In this document: positions 26,539 to 32,289 of the stretch, piece after piece
Numbering within the stretch: the first letter of the stretch is position 1
Layout: each line of letters opens with the position of its first letter
Origin: Flavobacteriaceae bacterium
GTDB lineage: Bacteria > Bacteroidota > Bacteroidia > Flavobacteriales > Flavobacteriaceae
Direction of reading: 5' to 3'
Assembly: GCA_030828745.1 (NCBI GenBank)
Contig: JAURBX010000006.1
Location: 1 to 32,353, forward strand
Length of the DNA: 32,353 bases
The notes under the pieces: model-generated
Databases searched by the model: none
Seen by the model: only the letters and a program-made list of their open reading frames with translations
What the model was told of the DNA's origin: nothing
Made by a program: the position numbers and the translations under genes

Positions 26539-27036
26539 TTAATTTTTCAAGTACTCTTCCCATTCTTTTTTATCAAAAGTTTTCCCAAAGAGCTCGTAGA
26601 TACCGATTGCTTTTATGAAAAAATATTTAGTAAGACCAGCGACTTCATAAACAAAATAGACCTCTTCATTAAAGGCAGACGGTTTTATTATTACGGTTTT
26701 ATCTTCTAATCTAAATTCTTTTAATTCCTTTGTTTTGATAACCCTTTTAAATGTTTCAAACAAAGTGTCTATTTCCTCAGAAGTTGATTGGAACCTGAGT
26801 GTAGTTTTTTCCTCCTTTTTGTCATACTCTGAATTAGACCAAACGAATGCATAATATTCTTTTCCATTAACATTAGGGAGTTTATTCAAACTTACGCCTC
26901 CTGTAATTCTACCGTGGTAGTATATAAAATGTAAACCAATTTGTTTTCCTAAAACGTCATTAGTGACTTTTATTGTCTGTCCAAAGAACGGGGATGGCAG
27001 TGTTAAAAAGAAAACAATCAAAAGCAGTTTCTTCAT
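26539..27036 (-). CDS. Secreted hypothetical protein
   Basis: 165-aa ORF with signal peptide MKKLLLIVFFLTLPSPFFGQ. Confidence 0.6.
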   Translation of the reverse strand: MKKLLLIVFFLTLPSPFFGQTIKVTNDVLGKQIGLHFIYYHGRITGGVSLNKLPNVNGKEYYAFVWSNSEYDKKEEKTTLRFQSTSEEIDTLFETFKRVIKTKELKEFRLEDKTVIIKPSAFNEEVYFVYEVAGLTKYFFIKAIGIYELFGKTFDKKEWEEYLKN

Positions 27037-27146
27037 TTTAATGGATTTATAGTTATACGATTCAAACAGTTAAAGCTTTATATAAAGCAACAAATACCAA
27101 GGTAATTGAATAAGACATTTGGTACAGAGGATGTTACGTTTAGGTT

Positions 27147-27380
27147 TTATTCTGAACAATAAGTATCTCCAACTTGATACTGATTGTAAACCTCTTCAGT
27201 TACAGCTCCCGACGGGATTGCTCCATATTTATTAGGAACGTTGTTATTGCTGTAATTTTGATTTTGCCAAAAGAACAGAAAGTTACTTCCGCTTTTCTCT
27301 TTTCTTGTGATTTCAACACATCCCGTTTCTTTAGAACATGAAGAAGCAAGAAATAAAAATAAATAGATTAACCTTTTCAT
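27147..27380 (-). CDS. Small putative lipoprotein
   Basis: MKRLIYLFLFLASSCSKETG lipobox; 77 aa. Confidence 0.55.
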   Translation of the reverse strand: MKRLIYLFLFLASSCSKETGCVEITRKEKSGSNFLFFWQNQNYSNNNVPNKYGAIPSGAVTEEVYNQYQVGDTYCSE

Positions 27381-27695: not shown

Positions 27696-27769
27696 GGTCC
27701 TATAGCTCAGTTGGTTAGAGTAGCTGACTCATAATCAGTTGGTCCCTGGTTCGAGCCCAGGTGGGACCA
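27696..27769 (+). tRNA. tRNA with CAT anticodon (elongator Met most likely; Ile2 not excluded)
   Basis: Acceptor GGTCCTA/TGGGACC, D arm TAGCTCAGTTGGTTAGAGTA, anticodon arm CTGACTCATAATCAG, T arm CCTGGTTCGAGCCCAGG. Confidence 0.93.
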
Positions 27770-27801
27770 CATTCAAGAAAGAGCACAAGCTCAATCAGAA
27801 C

Positions 27802-27832
27802 AAGCCCTTCAAGCAATTGAGGGCTTTTTTTT
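27802..27832 (+). terminator. Rho-independent terminator downstream of the CAT tRNA
   Basis: AAGCCC-T-TCAA GCAA TTGA-GGGCTT followed by TTTTTT. Confidence 0.7.
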
Positions 27833-27996
27833 ACCTAGTATCTAGACACTCAAATATACCCAAAATCGTGTCAACTGGCTCATTACTGCCAGTAAATAGA
27901 CAGTTAAATCCCCAAAAAATTCCAACCTAAAACTCTGAAATAAGACCCCCATCCCTAAAATTAAATCTACTTTTCTTTTGAGACTAGAGCACATAT

Positions 27997-28106
27997 AATG
28001 ATGTATAACCTAAATCATTGGCATATCTTCTTCATTAAGCTCAGGAGGAAACACGGAGCAGATAGATTTTCTATATTAGCAGCTTACTAATCATAAATCA
28101 ATTAAA
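27997..28106. repeat. Repeat copy A: intergenic repeat/leader ending at the ATG of the 28107 gene
   Basis: AATGATGTATAACCTAAATCATTGGCATATCTTCTTCATTAAGCTCAGGAGGAAACACGGAGCAG...TATATTAGCAGCTTACTAATCATAAATCAATTAAA; closely matches 31754-31872. Minus strand encodes SVFPPELNEEDMPMI-stop. Confidence 0.85.
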
Positions 28107-28910
28107 ATGAAAAAAATTCTTCTAATCTTATTTACAGGTCTAATGATATCGGCATGTAATAATCCTCAAAAAACATCATCTAAGTTTTCAGCGCCAGGAA
28201 CAGGTAAATACATTGAATGGTTTGGTGATAATGAAATGGCAAATGAATTTGCTATGATTGGAATGAGACACTTTATGAATGCTGAACAAGAAAAAGCTTA
28301 TGCTTTTTTCGAAACAGCTCTTTCTTACGATTCCTCAATGTTTGCTCCACATGTTTGCCTAGCGGAAATGTCTTTAGACGGTTCTGAAAAACAAGAATAC
28401 CACATATCGCAAGCGAAAAAGAATGTTGAAGAAAATAATGAGACATCAAAGGTTTTTGTTTCAATTTTAGACCAGAAGCCTGATGGTTACTGGGGCTATT
28501 TTGATTCTTCAAATGCGCATGAACTTTGGAAAAAAATGCATGAGCTTGAACCAAAAGGAAACTTCATAAAACAATTCTATGCCTGGACTATGAAAGATAA
28601 AGAACAAAGTATCGCAACTATTAACAAGTTTATAGCTAACGCAAAAACAAATAATGAGTCTTATGAAAATCTACTTAACCTTTTGGGGTATAAATTGATG
28701 TCAAAAGGTGATATGGAAGGTGCTGAAAAAGTATTTTTAGACTATATTAAAGCCTACCCTGACGGATATAATGCATATGACTCAATGGGAGAATACTATT
28801 TAAAAAATGAAATGAATAAACCTGCAAAAGAGATGTACATGAAAGCTCTTGAAAAATATCAGTTTGCAAATAATGCGCGTAAAGTAATTTCAAAAATGAG
28901 GGAACAATAA
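28107..28910 (+). CDS. TPR-like lipoprotein
   Basis: MKKILLILFTGLMISACNN lipobox; helical repeats AYAFFETALSYDSSMFAPHVCLAEM, AEKVFLDYIKAYPDGYNAYDSMGEYYLKNEMNKPAKEMYMKALEKY. Confidence 0.75.
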   Translation: MKKILLILFTGLMISACNNPQKTSSKFSAPGTGKYIEWFGDNEMANEFAMIGMRHFMNAEQEKAYAFFETALSYDSSMFAPHVCLAEMSLDGSEKQEYHISQAKKNVEENNETSKVFVSILDQKPDGYWGYFDSSNAHELWKKMHELEPKGNFIKQFYAWTMKDKEQSIATINKFIANAKTNNESYENLLNLLGYKLMSKGDMEGAEKVFLDYIKAYPDGYNAYDSMGEYYLKNEMNKPAKEMYMKALEKYQFANNARKVISKMREQ

Positions 28911-28927
28911 GAACAAATGATTATAAA

Positions 28928-28952
28928 AACCCTCCAAGTGGAGGGTTTTTAT
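28928..28952 (+). terminator. Rho-independent terminator after the 28107 gene
   Basis: AAAACCCTCC AAGT GGAGGGTTTTTAT. Confidence 0.75.
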
Positions 28953-29030
28953 ATCATCGGCATATCCTCTTCAGTAAGTTCTACAATACACTTTACCAAG
29001 AATGAAACAAGCTACTAATGAAGACGTTTT
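28953..29030. repeat. Repeat copy C
   Basis: ATCATCGGCATATCCTCTTCAGTAAGTTCTAC...CTACTAATGAAGACGTTTT; minus strand encodes VELTEEDMPMI-stop and, in another frame, KTSSLVACFIL. Confidence 0.75.
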
Positions 29031-29124
29031 AGGGGTTTAACATTTGGATAAGCGATGGGATAAAATATAGTTGCATTATAATGTGACTATTTCTATTTAG
29101 TCTGTAATTTAATATATTGGTCTT

Positions 29125-30444
29125 ATGAAAAAACTTATATACCCAATAGCATTAATCCTAACAGCATTTCTAATCCTATACAGCTGTTCACCAGAAGAAG
29201 AAACACAAGCACCAACTAGTACTGTTCAAAGTACAACTCCAGAGCCTGAACCTGAAACTCCCGCACCAGTAGTTGTTCAATATACTTTAACAGTAACAGC
29301 TGGTGAAGGCGGAACAGTTTCAAGTGAAGGTGGAGAATTTGAAGAGGGAACAGAAGTAGAACTAACTGCAACGCCTAATGAAGGGTATAGATTTGATGGC
29401 TGGGAAGGAATTGAATCAAATGAAAGCACAATTACACTTTCTGTAACTTCAGACACTGAACTAAGTCCAATTTTTAATTTAATGATTCAATCACCAGCTA
29501 GCTATGGTGTAGATGAATACTGGGGTCAAATTGTTGATTTTGAGCCTGAAATATTTTTTGCATCCGATTTATCTAACACTTTAAGAGAAAAATTTATGAT
29601 TGATTTAAATCTTGCAATATCTCAATTTGGAAACTATGGTCCTCTTGAATGTTATGTCCTTGGAAATAGCACTAATGCGGCTAATGAATTAGCTATTGAA
29701 TATTGCAATAGAAGGGTTGAAAGAGGTCAAGAAGGAGATTTAAATGGTTGTATAGATAACCAAATGAATGATAATGGCTATGGTATGGAATATTATAGAA
29801 AAGATAGCGATGGTAATGGTATTTGGGCATCGTTAAATGGGTCTAGACGTCATGGTTATCATTTATTGCAATTTTCAAAACCTTATCATTATGAGGAAGA
29901 CCCTTCAAGTATAGAATATACGATTGTAGTTTTTCACGAGTATTTTCATGTTGTCAATGCAGCAAATGTATTTAGTGACGAAAGTATTTATATTGAAGGA
30001 ATTGGTCAACAAATTCCTGAGAGGGGTCCCCCAGCAATGGTAGAAGGGTCTGCTAATTACCTTAGTCATTATCTTGCAAGAAAACTATTTGATTATCCAA
30101 ATTCTTATTTGAATTTAAGACTATATATGGTGACTCAGATGGATAACATAAAAAGAGCTAGGAACGAATTTCCCAATTGTAATAATGTTAATTTATCAGA
30201 GATAAATTATGGAGATTCATGTGATATGTATAGCCTTGGAACATGGGGAATAGCTTACTTGATGGATAGAGCTGATAATATTAATGCATACCAAGAAGTG
30301 CTATTTCCATTAATAAATGATATTGGCTATTACGCGGCTTTTGAACAAACCTTTGGAATTACATTTGATGAATTCGAAATGGAATTTAGAACTTTTCTTG
30401 AATTACCTATATCGCAGCAATTAGAAATCATCCCTGATATTTAA
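29125..30444 (+). CDS. Lipoprotein with InlB B-repeat-like domain and a gluzincin-like (HExxH...E) metallopeptidase domain
   Basis: LILYSCSPEEE lipobox; YTLTVTAGEGGTVSSEGGEFEEGTEVELTATPNEGYRFDGWEG; IVVFHEYFHVVNA...PPAMVEGSANYLSHYLA. Confidence 0.75.
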   Translation: MKKLIYPIALILTAFLILYSCSPEEETQAPTSTVQSTTPEPEPETPAPVVVQYTLTVTAGEGGTVSSEGGEFEEGTEVELTATPNEGYRFDGWEGIESNESTITLSVTSDTELSPIFNLMIQSPASYGVDEYWGQIVDFEPEIFFASDLSNTLREKFMIDLNLAISQFGNYGPLECYVLGNSTNAANELAIEYCNRRVERGQEGDLNGCIDNQMNDNGYGMEYYRKDSDGNGIWASLNGSRRHGYHLLQFSKPYHYEEDPSSIEYTIVVFHEYFHVVNAANVFSDESIYIEGIGQQIPERGPPAMVEGSANYLSHYLARKLFDYPNSYLNLRLYMVTQMDNIKRARNEFPNCNNVNLSEINYGDSCDMYSLGTWGIAYLMDRADNINAYQEVLFPLINDIGYYAAFEQTFGITFDEFEMEFRTFLELPISQQLEIIPDI

Positions 30445-30450
30445 ACCCTA

Positions 30451-30559
30451 GGCATATCTTCAGTAAGTTGAATGAAAAAAACTACTAATGAAGTAAGTGA
30501 AGACTTGCCTTTGTTTACAGTGTAAGTTCAGGAAGAAAAACATGGCGTAGAGACGTTTT
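30451..30559. repeat. Repeat copy D: composite of two diverged units (D1 30451-30504, D2 30523-30559)
   Basis: D1 GGCATATCTTCAGTAAGTT...CTACTAATGAAG matches copy C; D2 GTAAGTTCAGGAAGAAAAACATGGCGTAGAGACGTTTT matches copies A/B and the right edge of C. Minus strand: TSLVVFFIQLTEDMPRV-stop and KTSLRHVFLPELTL-stop. Confidence 0.7.
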
Positions 30560-31052
30560 ATTTATCTAATATAAGAAATGAAATAATAAGTATTAAAAAA
30601 GTTATTGCTGAAGAAATACAGCGAATTATGTTAAAATTATTCCATTTAACTTCTATACTTTTTCTAAGAGTTTTTATTTCTTCTGACGTAATGGATTCTA
30701 AATTTGTTTTGTCTAAAATTTCATTCAAAGGTATGTTTCCTGATACGGTTACACCAAATACACCAATCCAATAAATAACAAGAGTAAATACAAACAACCA
30801 GAAAATATTCTTGGGATACAAATTAAAATAGAATACAGGGACCAATGCTACAGCTATTATTGCCCCAAGAAATATAATTTTAAATGCATTATTTAATATG
30901 ACACGATTCATAGATTGTAATGCTGTTAGGTATTCAATATCACTTAATTTTCCAATACCAGGTTTCACAGCATTAGACCATGTAAAAAAAATCCCAGCCA
31001 TTAATCCTGTTAATAATATGGCAAGGGCTAATATGATTGTTTCAGATTTCAA
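30558..31052 (-). CDS. DUF1772 (anthrone oxygenase-like) membrane protein
   Basis: LLTGLMAGIFFTWSNAVKPGIGKLSDIEYLTALQSMNRVILN; NIPLNEIL; four TM helices. Confidence 0.8.
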   Translation of the reverse strand: MKSETIILALAILLTGLMAGIFFTWSNAVKPGIGKLSDIEYLTALQSMNRVILNNAFKIIFLGAIIAVALVPVFYFNLYPKNIFWLFVFTLVIYWIGVFGVTVSGNIPLNEILDKTNLESITSEEIKTLRKSIEVKWNNFNIIRCISSAITFLILIISFLILDK

Positions 31053-31056
31053 TAAT

Positions 31057-31146
31057 TTATTTTTTCTTTAAAAGTAAATAGCCACCTCCCCCAAGACAAC
31101 AAATTAAAGCGATAAGTAATCCCGTATCCACAGGACAAATATATGC
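31057..31146 (-). pseudogene. Orphan C-terminal membrane tail, possible vestigial gene or microprotein
   Basis: Reading AYICPVDTGLLIALICCLGGGGYLLLKKK-stop, bounded upstream by an in-frame stop, no ATG. Confidence 0.3.
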
Positions 31147-31220
31147 TTAATGATTTTGTATTAACTATTAATCAATTAAAGTTAAAATCTAAAAGCAAAT
31201 ATTTTTATTTTTACGGTGTA

Positions 31221-31628
31221 ATGAAGAATATCGTTAGCTTTAACCGAGCAGTTCAATTAAGCGTAATCATTTTTAGTTTACTTTCCTTGTTTCATTTAAC
31301 AGTTATCATAGGGATTATATTCTTTGACTTGGCCCCAATTAAATTACTTTGGGGTGGAAAATTAAAGAAAACCGATGAGCTGATAAAATTTGAAATTATA
31401 TCATTAGTAGTTTTAATTTTTTGCTTGATTATTGTTCTTTTAAGGTCCCAATCATTGATTTCAATATTTATTAATTTTTCAAGAGTTACATTATGGCTTC
31501 TCTTTTTTCTTTTTATACTCAATACTATTGGAAATTTAATTGCTGAGTCTATATTTGAGAAATTCTTTGCTCTAATTACATTAATATTATCAATATTATG
31601 TTTAAGAATGGCATTGGAACCAACATAG
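31221..31628 (+). CDS. Hypothetical multi-pass membrane protein
   Basis: MKNIVSFNRAVQLSVIIFSLLSLFHLTVIIGIIFFDLAPIKLLWGG; about 4 TM helices; start at internal ATG at 31221 rather than 31143. Confidence 0.6.
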   Translation: MKNIVSFNRAVQLSVIIFSLLSLFHLTVIIGIIFFDLAPIKLLWGGKLKKTDELIKFEIISLVVLIFCLIIVLLRSQSLISIFINFSRVTLWLLFFLFILNTIGNLIAESIFEKFFALITLILSILCLRMALEPT

Positions 31629-31753
31629 TAAATGAATTAAATCTATAGTAAGCCTTTACGCTTCTATTTATTTGAGAAAAAAGAATCTATTTTGGAAAAA
31701 CAGATAAGGCTGCATAATAAAATTCACATTTCTTTTAAGATTACGGCTGGAAA

Positions 31754-31872
31754 AATGATATGTAGCTCAAATCATCGGCATATCCTCTTCATTAAGTTTA
31801 GGAAGAAAAACACGGAGTAGAGATATTATAAAAATTTTATATTAGTAACTTATTAATCATAAATCAATTAAA
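31754..31872. repeat. Repeat copy B: intergenic repeat/leader ending at the ATG of the 31873 gene
   Basis: AATGATATGTAGCTCAAATCATCGGCATATCCTCTTCATTAAGTTTAGGAAGAAAAACACGGAGTAGAGA...TATATTAGTAACTTATTAATCATAAATCAATTAAA. Minus strand: ISLLRVFLPKLNEEDMPMI-stop. Confidence 0.85.
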
Positions 31873-32289
31873 ATGAGAAAATTTATTTTACCATTAATAG
31901 CTGGATATGTATCTGTTGCTGCAATTGCAGGGATTGTGGTCGTCCCTTTTTATTTTAATCCAACAACAGCCGAGCTGCATAAAGCTTTCCCAGCTGCTTA
32001 TTATGCTGAACCTGTTCTTTGGGCTGGATTTGCTGCAGGACTACTACAAACACTATTACAGGTAATTATTTGGGATAAAATGAACTTTAGAAGCATCAAA
32101 GATGGAGCACTAAATGGAATTTGGTTAGGAGCTATTTTAGCAGGTATACAAAGCTTAAATGAAGCTTCCCAATATTCTGTATTTAATGCTACCGGTCAAG
32201 CATTGACTACTGTTATAATCTATATAGTATTTACAGCCATCTCTGGAGGGGCAATTGCTTGGGCTTTTGCAAGAGGAGAGAAAAACTAA
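31873..32289 (+). CDS. Hypothetical membrane protein (about 4 TM helices)
   Basis: MRKFILPLIAGYVSVAAIAGIVVVPFYFNP...ALTTVIIYIVFTAISGGAIAWAFARGEKN. Confidence 0.65.
   Translation: MRKFILPLIAGYVSVAAIAGIVVVPFYFNPTTAELHKAFPAAYYAEPVLWAGFAAGLLQTLLQVIIWDKMNFRSIKDGALNGIWLGAILAGIQSLNEASQYSVFNATGQALTTVIIYIVFTAISGGAIAWAFARGEKN

Follow-up and report, generated by a model that had tools for sequence, protein, structure and literature searches.

At the end of the window, by which we mean the whole 32,353-nucleotide stretch analysed here, a short repeat alternates with accessory genes and, on the opposite strand, encodes one recurring C-terminal peptide. What is this repeat, and why does it lie between genes? 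The original prediction, made from the DNA letters, put forward three candidates: relics of the 3' ends of a gene family, a non-autonomous element keeping the tail of a mobility gene, and recombination sites bounding gene cassettes. On our analysis these turn out to be one and the same thing. We read the region, with a probability of roughly three in four, as the beginning of an array of mobile gene cassettes whose boundaries are integrase-tail sites; such an array is functionally integron-like although it is not a member of the integrons.

The repeat and the gene end it resembles

All four repeat loci that had been proposed to share one core exist in the window (Table 1). The 38-bp core, TTAAATCATCGGCATATCCTCTTCATTAAGTTCAGGGA, recurs throughout the genus. 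Its 20-bp pattern matches the window exactly three times (at 28020, 28959 and 31777, all on the plus strand), and the fourth core, copy C, lacks 3 bp; this is the one-codon loss that had been noticed earlier under the label 'D1'. On the minus strand, copies A, B, C and D read CSVFPPELNEEDMPMI, VSFLVKCIVELTEEDMPMI, SSLTSLVVFFIQLTEDMPRV and ISLLRVFLPKLNEEDMPMI, respectively. The recurring peptides with three different stop codons were thus real on re-reading the copies, but the labels of the loci had been shifted ('B' is copy D, 'C' is copy B and 'D1' is copy C), and 'D2', which had been listed as a separate reading, belongs to composite copy C, where it forms the right half of a second core. 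With up to three mismatches allowed in the 20-bp pattern, none of 100 dinucleotide-preserving shuffles matched. Other contigs of the window genome hold two further cores, one exact (C145:1244) and one with a single mismatch (C36:2032), and 34 of the 57 genomes examined contain the core, with reversed-pattern controls that came out clean.

Table 1. Coordinates of the array features within the window.
Feature	Position	Strand	Remarks
tRNA-Met(CAT), array anchor	27696..27770	+	ARAGORN
Array head (leader), from tRNA terminator to first core	27825..28009	+	AGACAGTTAAA motif, as in integrase 5' flanks
Core site A	28010..28050	+	HMM 41 bits; minus strand PELNEEDMPMI*
Cassette A payload: 267-aa lipoprotein, TPR-like repeats	28107..28910	+	
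Core site B, directly past cassette A transcription terminator	28949..28986	+	HMM 41 bits
Partial ~75-bp mini-element inserted in core B	28981..29022	+	
Cassette B payload: 439-aa lipoprotein, divergent InlB repeat	29125..30444	+	Pfam PF18998
Core site C, 3-bp (one-codon) deletion	30441..30472	+	HMM 20 bits
Mini-element within core C	30473..30522	+	
Right half of second core at mini-element junction	30523..30553	+	
Cassette C: 164-aa membrane protein, anthrone-oxygenase family	30558..31052	-	PF08592
Cassette C: 161-aa membrane protein	31143..31628	+	
Second copy of head leader's end, upstream of core D	31720..31767	+	81% identical to G027 leader
Core site D	31768..31807	+	HMM 47 bits
Cassette D payload: 138-aa membrane protein, family unknown; contig ends after	31873..32289	+	

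Relatives have intact tyrosine recombinases of 347-348 residues whose C-terminus is exactly the peptide (N/T)EEDMPMI*; these proteins end ..HSSINVSLTYLRGLE(I/V)PELNEEDMPMI*. On comparison of the sequences, the site corresponds to the exact 3' end of these genes, namely the last ~10 codons and the stop, read on the opposite strand. The peptide is therefore the tail of a mobility gene, as had been suspected, but of a tyrosine recombinase rather than a transposase. The enzymes carry an integrase domain (PF00589, E 4e-9 to 7e-13); R, K, R, H and Y are invariant among ten of them (R..K..YxxR..H..Y), Tyr stands in place of the first His of HxxR, and their dN/dS is 0.13-0.20. The genes abut partial or complete tRNA copies at their 5' end and a core at their 3' end, and tRNA sequence is present in 18 of 19 integrase 5' flanks versus 14 of 1000 random windows. 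The sites repeated in other families track the local integrase-tail variants (KEEDMPMV, TEDDMPMV). The window genome has only a decayed integrase remnant; elsewhere in the genus an integrase at E<=1e-20 occurs in eight of 35 genomes, whose assemblies are incomplete, none was detected in many array-bearing genomes, and decayed integrases of graded length occur. Against phage and plasmid records, tblastn of the integrase gave only matches below 28% identity. The prediction had been staked on the existence of more than these copies and of an intact protein, and on the repeat not being some unrelated non-coding element: intact proteins and hundreds of copies do exist, and no known non-coding family matches, the site having no match in Rfam.

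When 190 distinct core copies were aligned, the information dropped to near zero at -11, and no conserved sequence was present to the left of -10. A search for inverted arms in the core consensus gave nothing above shuffles, which counts against a simple tyrosine-recombinase site, where arms are expected. Identity at third versus other codon positions was 0.80 versus 0.91 in integrase-attached copies and 0.80 versus 0.85 in the remaining copies. The third-position pattern that had been taken as a sign of descent from a gene end thus stands in that respect, but its signal is weak in an alignment of many copies; this argues for descent from the integrase gene together with constraint on the site, and not for translation of each copy. 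Among 276 non-integrase copies, the core provides the stop codon of the payload in 44, as for the cassette B payload, which ends LEIIPDI and takes its TAA from core C.

Arrays, their anchors and the movement of cassettes

Cores were counted in 987 kb of fetched loci, giving 326 copies at a median spacing of 863 bp, usually with one gene after each. Adjacent cores share the same orientation in 218 cases versus 18 with opposite orientation. In 149 of the 216 cassettes that we delimited there is a single ORF of 80 aa or more; 220 cassette ORFs run along the core direction and 46 against it. Cassettes usually have a promoter-like leader and often their own terminator. A promoter-like leader, TTAATCATAAATCAATTAAAATG, is scattered in the genome independently of the core. 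The ~75-bp mini-element, of which the fetched loci hold 48 copies, divides cores at A(G/T)TAAGTTC, and the crossover probably falls in the right part of the core, at A(T/G)TAAGTTC.

The arrays lie behind tRNA genes, which elsewhere are tRNA-Ala, tRNA-Asn and tRNA-His; at the orthologous tRNA-Met in relatives, the distance to the same flank is variable. The head leader is 81-89% conserved behind tRNA-His (G027) and tRNA-Met (G006), ending exactly at the first core; in G018 it is 84% conserved behind tRNA-Asn, with no core after it. A boundary tRNA and an integrase adjoining tRNA sequence, as in tRNA-anchored additive islands, are both found; tRNA 3'-end repeats are not present between cassettes, and tRNA-Met 3' fragments are confined to the distal end of some islands.

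The layout had been called cassette-like, and the repeats indeed bound single-gene units present in different arrays and species. About 15 pairs of units are 86-99% identical from core to core within unrelated flanks. One cassette is 99% identical between G030 and G001, whose lepA genes are only 76.3% identical, and another is 97% identical between G031 and G010 (lepA 87.8%). Cassette A of the window (28086-28950) recurs at 97.6% identity in another species (G027), where the tRNA in front of it is a different one, and the match stops at the core edge. Homologues of the cassette B payload adjoin cores in many other arrays, and the 164-aa gene of cassette C with its following gene has a paralogue on contig C36 (85.5% identical DNA over 1353 bp). 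Orthologous tRNA-Ala loci of G018, G028 and G031 have different contents, and units are duplicated inside one array. These alignments establish unit duplication, reordering and interspecies sharing with breaks at the sites. In near-identical cassette pairs the mismatches are scattered over the core with no single fixed switch point, and linkage within the core shows no break at one point.

Proposed mechanism and rival explanations

We infer that this tyrosine recombinase catalyses cassette movement. The recombinase would integrate its own island at a tRNA gene and would recombine one core with another, in cis or in trans, so that cassettes could leave and enter as one-core circles; the other cores would be non-autonomous derivatives retaining 30-75 bp of the integrase tail as their site. 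Since the core is integrase coding sequence, exchange at the integrase's own copy would preserve the frame. Owing to the decayed integrase in the window genome and the few in the genus, action in trans or in the past must be assumed. Homologous recombination between the 38-bp repeats could account for part of the shuffling.

Ordinary tRNA-targeted islands might instead have accreted in tandem, every unit having started as a full element with its own integrase, and then decayed, leaving the tails as relics that have no role as sites now. Additive flexible genomic islands at tRNA genes, whose units are separated by copies of tRNA 3' ends, are common among marine bacteria (PMC4119200, PMC10872708), and both the integrases adjoining tRNA genes and the decayed integrases of graded length fit such a history. 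Nevertheless, it predicts tRNA-end repeats between units, whereas the left flank of the core lacks conserved sequence, and compact single-gene units, duplicated within one array and shared by distant species at 97-99% identity exactly from one core to the next, also speak against it; we consider it unlikely. The scattered core mismatches and the many array-bearing genomes in which an integrase was not detected would suit RecA-mediated homologous recombination after natural transformation, with the 38-bp repeat as a mere homology patch. Such a patch has no reason to be the 3' end of an integrase gene or, in other families, to track the local integrase tail, and the splitting of cores by the mini-element at one place is left unexplained; this reading appears very unlikely.

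A true integron, either a CALIN or one with a distant IntI, whose attC sites were missed would account for the oriented single-gene cassettes, the arrays partly devoid of integrase and the GTT near the likely crossover. However, the integrases score 20-25 bits against TIGR02249 (cutoff 265) and match only PF00589, R''/R' motifs (RYYYAAC..GTTRRRY) occur in none of the 190 sites, hairpin folding of eight sites gave z-scores of -0.75 to 0.91, none above shuffles, and the site is conserved in sequence. Integron membership is refuted by these integrase-score, motif and hairpin tests, and we give this explanation almost no weight. Chance, or a generic 5'-leader or promoter repeat, is equally implausible: the dispersal of the promoter-like leader would favour it, but the core is separable from that leader, on which ground the promoter-repeat explanation was rejected, and neither the shuffles, from which no core is expected, nor the occurrence in 34 of 57 genomes with clean controls agrees with it.

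Relation to known systems

Integrons are the standard example of single-gene stockpiling and shuffling. The array of integrase-tail cassettes resembles integrons and CALINs in its co-oriented single-gene cassettes that move between arrays, the breaks falling at the sites, in the position of the site at the 3' side of the gene, in its tyrosine recombinase, in its conserved head and in the existence of arrays that have no integrase. It differs from the IntI, attI and attC system in that the recombinase is far from IntI; the site is a sequence-conserved 38 bp devoid of attC motifs and hairpin, occupies the 3' end of the integrase gene and codes for the integrase tail; the cassettes usually have promoter-like leaders; and the arrays are anchored at tRNA genes. 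MITE-like non-autonomous elements keep short transposase ends after the enzyme is lost, and units here likewise retain a mobility-gene end, but they form co-oriented arrays with only one kind of site, and the enzyme is a tyrosine recombinase instead of a DDE transposase. In SSV-type integrases attP lies inside the integrase gene; the overlap of site and coding sequence is shared, whereas the site here comprises the last codons, is reused in arrays and allows exchange that need not split the gene.

Additive flexible genomic islands share the tRNA anchor, variable cassette content and tyrosine recombinase, but the repeats here are integrase 3' ends and the units single genes. Tycheposons, compared through a second-hand description, have a similar architecture, with a tyrosine recombinase beside a tRNA copy, cargo and marine streamlined hosts, and integrase-tail-bounded single-gene arrays are absent from that description (PMC10872708). 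Our search of the open-access literature gave no description of integrase-tail cassette arrays, and a paper on the isolate Ca. Arcticimaribacter forsetii mentions neither integrases nor integrons.

Whether these arrays are both a non-integron cassette system, with the integrase's own 3' coding end as site and non-autonomous genes fused to that tail as cassettes, and a main route by which abundant marine Flavobacteriales exchange single genes seems to us evenly balanced. If so, there would be two cassette systems with unrelated integrase families and different types of site, which would mean that this strategy arose more than once, and the cassettes would be a single-gene transfer route in abundant, streamlined ocean bacteria. 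The core could serve as a sequence tag for reading the cassette pool directly from metagenomes, and the way in which the end of an integrase's own gene turns into a recombination site is now testable.

Core copies and the integrase gene end they match

The window is the entire contig C79 of a genome of 1.83 Mb in 173 contigs. The exact core, GGCATATC(C/T)TCTTCA(G/T)TAAG, occurs three times in it, always on the + strand, and no match is expected in shuffled window sequence; a fourth, composite copy is one codon short and includes an additional right half. Two further copies lie elsewhere in the same genome, on contigs C145 and C36. Exact matches were found in 93 stretches by a scan of GTDB, nearly all from marine Flavobacteriaceae, of which MS024-2A and Ca. 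Arcticimaribacter correspond to the NS5 marine group (PMC9122927). In many of the 93 stretches, the minus-strand frame is uninterrupted and encodes a whole tyrosine recombinase (347-348 residues) with the end ...YSFRHSGAIEIFKRTGSITKLQKAMGHSSINVSLTYLRGLEIPELNEEDMPMI*, and by sequence the core peptide is the tail of this integrase. The full-length recombinases match Phage_integrase (Pfam). Across ten integrases R, K, YxxR, H and Y are invariant, with Tyr in place of the first His of HxxR, and dN/dS of 0.13-0.20 indicates purifying selection. The window's genome holds the integrase only as a broken copy adjoining tRNA-Val.

The original prediction that the repeat descends from the 3' end of a gene is borne out by these intact recombinases, which finish with the repeat peptide. 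Its repeat peptides were right in sequence but assigned to the wrong loci, and the one-codon loss that it described in one copy is seen in the composite core.

Among 190 distinct core copies, the conserved stretch is TTAAATCATC-GGCATATCCTCTTCATTAAG-TTCAGGGA; information is near zero one base beyond its left edge, at the integrase stop codon, and on the right conservation fades from +26. In 44 of 276 non-integrase copies, the TAA at the left end of the core also terminates the payload gene before it. A promoter-like leader, TTATTAA(T/C)CATAAATCAATTAAAATG, is present in the window and on many contigs, and precedes many genes, including some without a core.

Features of the window (+ strand coordinates)
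Position	Feature	Observation
26539-27380	Two small genes upstream of tRNA-Met	Absent at the same place in G007
28020	Exact core	+ strand
28085-28106	Promoter-like leader	
28086-28950	Cassette A	97.6% identical in G027, behind a different tRNA; match stops at the core's left edge
28959	Exact core	+ strand
28981-29022	Mini-element in core B	
29125-30444	InlB-repeat lipoprotein	
30441-30553	Composite core	
30458-31797	Duplicated segment	85.5% identical copy on C36
30473-30522	Mini-element in core C	
30558-31052	Anthrone-oxygenase-like protein	Paralogue on C36; closest NCBIfam model chryseobasin maturation helper ChrI, 134 bits, below the cutoff of 275
31777	Exact core	+ strand
31851-31872	Promoter-like leader	

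tRNA anchoring and cassette arrays

Partial or complete tRNA sequence, in either orientation, was found in 18 of 19 integrase 5' flanks (200 bp each) compared with 14 of 1000 random windows. The head of the window's array, between the anchoring tRNA and the first core, is 81-89% conserved behind tRNA-His in genome G027 and tRNA-Met in G006, where conservation stops at the first core; behind tRNA-Asn in G018 it is 84% conserved, with no core after it. In relatives, the distance between tRNA-Met and the upstream flank seen in the window ranges from 0.2 to 8 kb, and the closest of them, G007 (92% at the flank), has different DNA after this tRNA; the window's tRNA-Met locus is a hotspot. Islands at the same tRNA-Met in L207 (G024:C34), G028:C1:161187-168497 and G011:C13 lie between the tRNA itself and a second copy of the tRNA 3' end; they are ordinary tRNA-targeted insertions at this hotspot. 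One of the two small genes upstream of tRNA-Met encodes 77 aa; its homologues adjoin cores elsewhere, lying between two cores in locus L228, and since the genes are also missing at this position in G007 the island may extend leftward past tRNA-Met. In some tRNA genes adjoining the integrase (L078, L098, L281, L138, L293), the D-arm is rewritten or hairpin-like insertions are present; it looks as though element DNA had been used to rebuild the 5' half of the tRNA.

Searching 97 loci (987 kb) with an HMM built on the core gave 326 sites. Of neighbouring cores no more than 4 kb apart, 218 pairs point the same way and 18 are opposed, and the median core spacing is 863 bp. Counting ORFs of 80 aa or more, 149 of 216 units contain exactly one, and the orientation matches that of the core in 220 ORFs and is opposite in 46; these co-oriented, mostly single-ORF units uphold the earlier proposal that the repeats are cassette boundaries. 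G018 has 13 core-bounded units behind tRNA-Ala, a locus shared with G028 and G031 with differing contents and rearranged order, and G022 and G001 have clear arrays at tRNA-Asn. Payload genes encode lipoproteins, SnoaL-like, cyclase, metallo-beta-lactamase-fold, rhodanese, esterase and PLP-enzyme proteins, and many are of unknown family. InlB-repeat lipoproteins, often ending ..LEIIPDI, recur as payload in many arrays (L200, L211, L215, L227 and L248, besides the window).

In about 15 pairs of units, identity is 86-99% across the core-to-core span, with both flanks unrelated (~0.3 identity). The unit common to G030 and G001 is 99% identical compared with 76.3% for lepA, that of G031 and G010 97% compared with 87.8%, and that of G030 and G021 98%; in G001 one unit is duplicated within the array.

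Relation to known systems and proposed mechanism

The system works like an integron, yet fails on three tested defining features, which rule out membership: the integron-integrase models give only 20-25 bits (cutoff 265), no attC motifs occur in the 190 copies, and there is no hairpin, as the core folds no better than shuffles. Inverted arms in the core were none above chance, and it matched no Rfam family. It also resembles tRNA-anchored additive islands and tycheposons overall, but the repeat here derives from the integrase end and not from the tRNA end. No description of such a system was found in the open-access literature (subscription papers being outside this scope). We place it with the gene-cassette systems, at about even odds that it merits rank as its own kind.

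On the most economical interpretation, the gene end of a tRNA-targeting integrase would double as the recombination site, and non-autonomous genes would become cassettes by fusion to this site. The integrase would presumably catalyze the exchange in trans, through circular intermediates. A non-coding mini-element of ~75 bp, inserted at cores, is present 48 times in the loci analysed; in 23 cases its far junction has the right half core A(G/T)TAAGTTC, pointing tentatively to crossover at this motif. Two results speak against a firm placement: core differences between near-identical unit pairs are scattered, and linkage within the core shows no break at one place. In some cases the mini-element forms part of a longer element that contains a decayed integrase.

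Sites and integrases in other families

Among 342 other genomes of the order, 16 have homologous integrases; these genomes belong to four other families. Repeated sites in their arrays carry the tail variant of their own lineage (KEEDMPMV, TEDDMPMV) and retain as much as ~75 bp from the end of the integrase gene; genomes there that lack the integrase have no repeated sites. The family with the EDLPEL tail shows little besides the integrase copies themselves. In G070 (C22, C25; L308, L315, L320, L325), which is assigned to another family, cores and integrase tail are identical to those of the window's genus, which may reflect recent transfer or a mis-binned contig.
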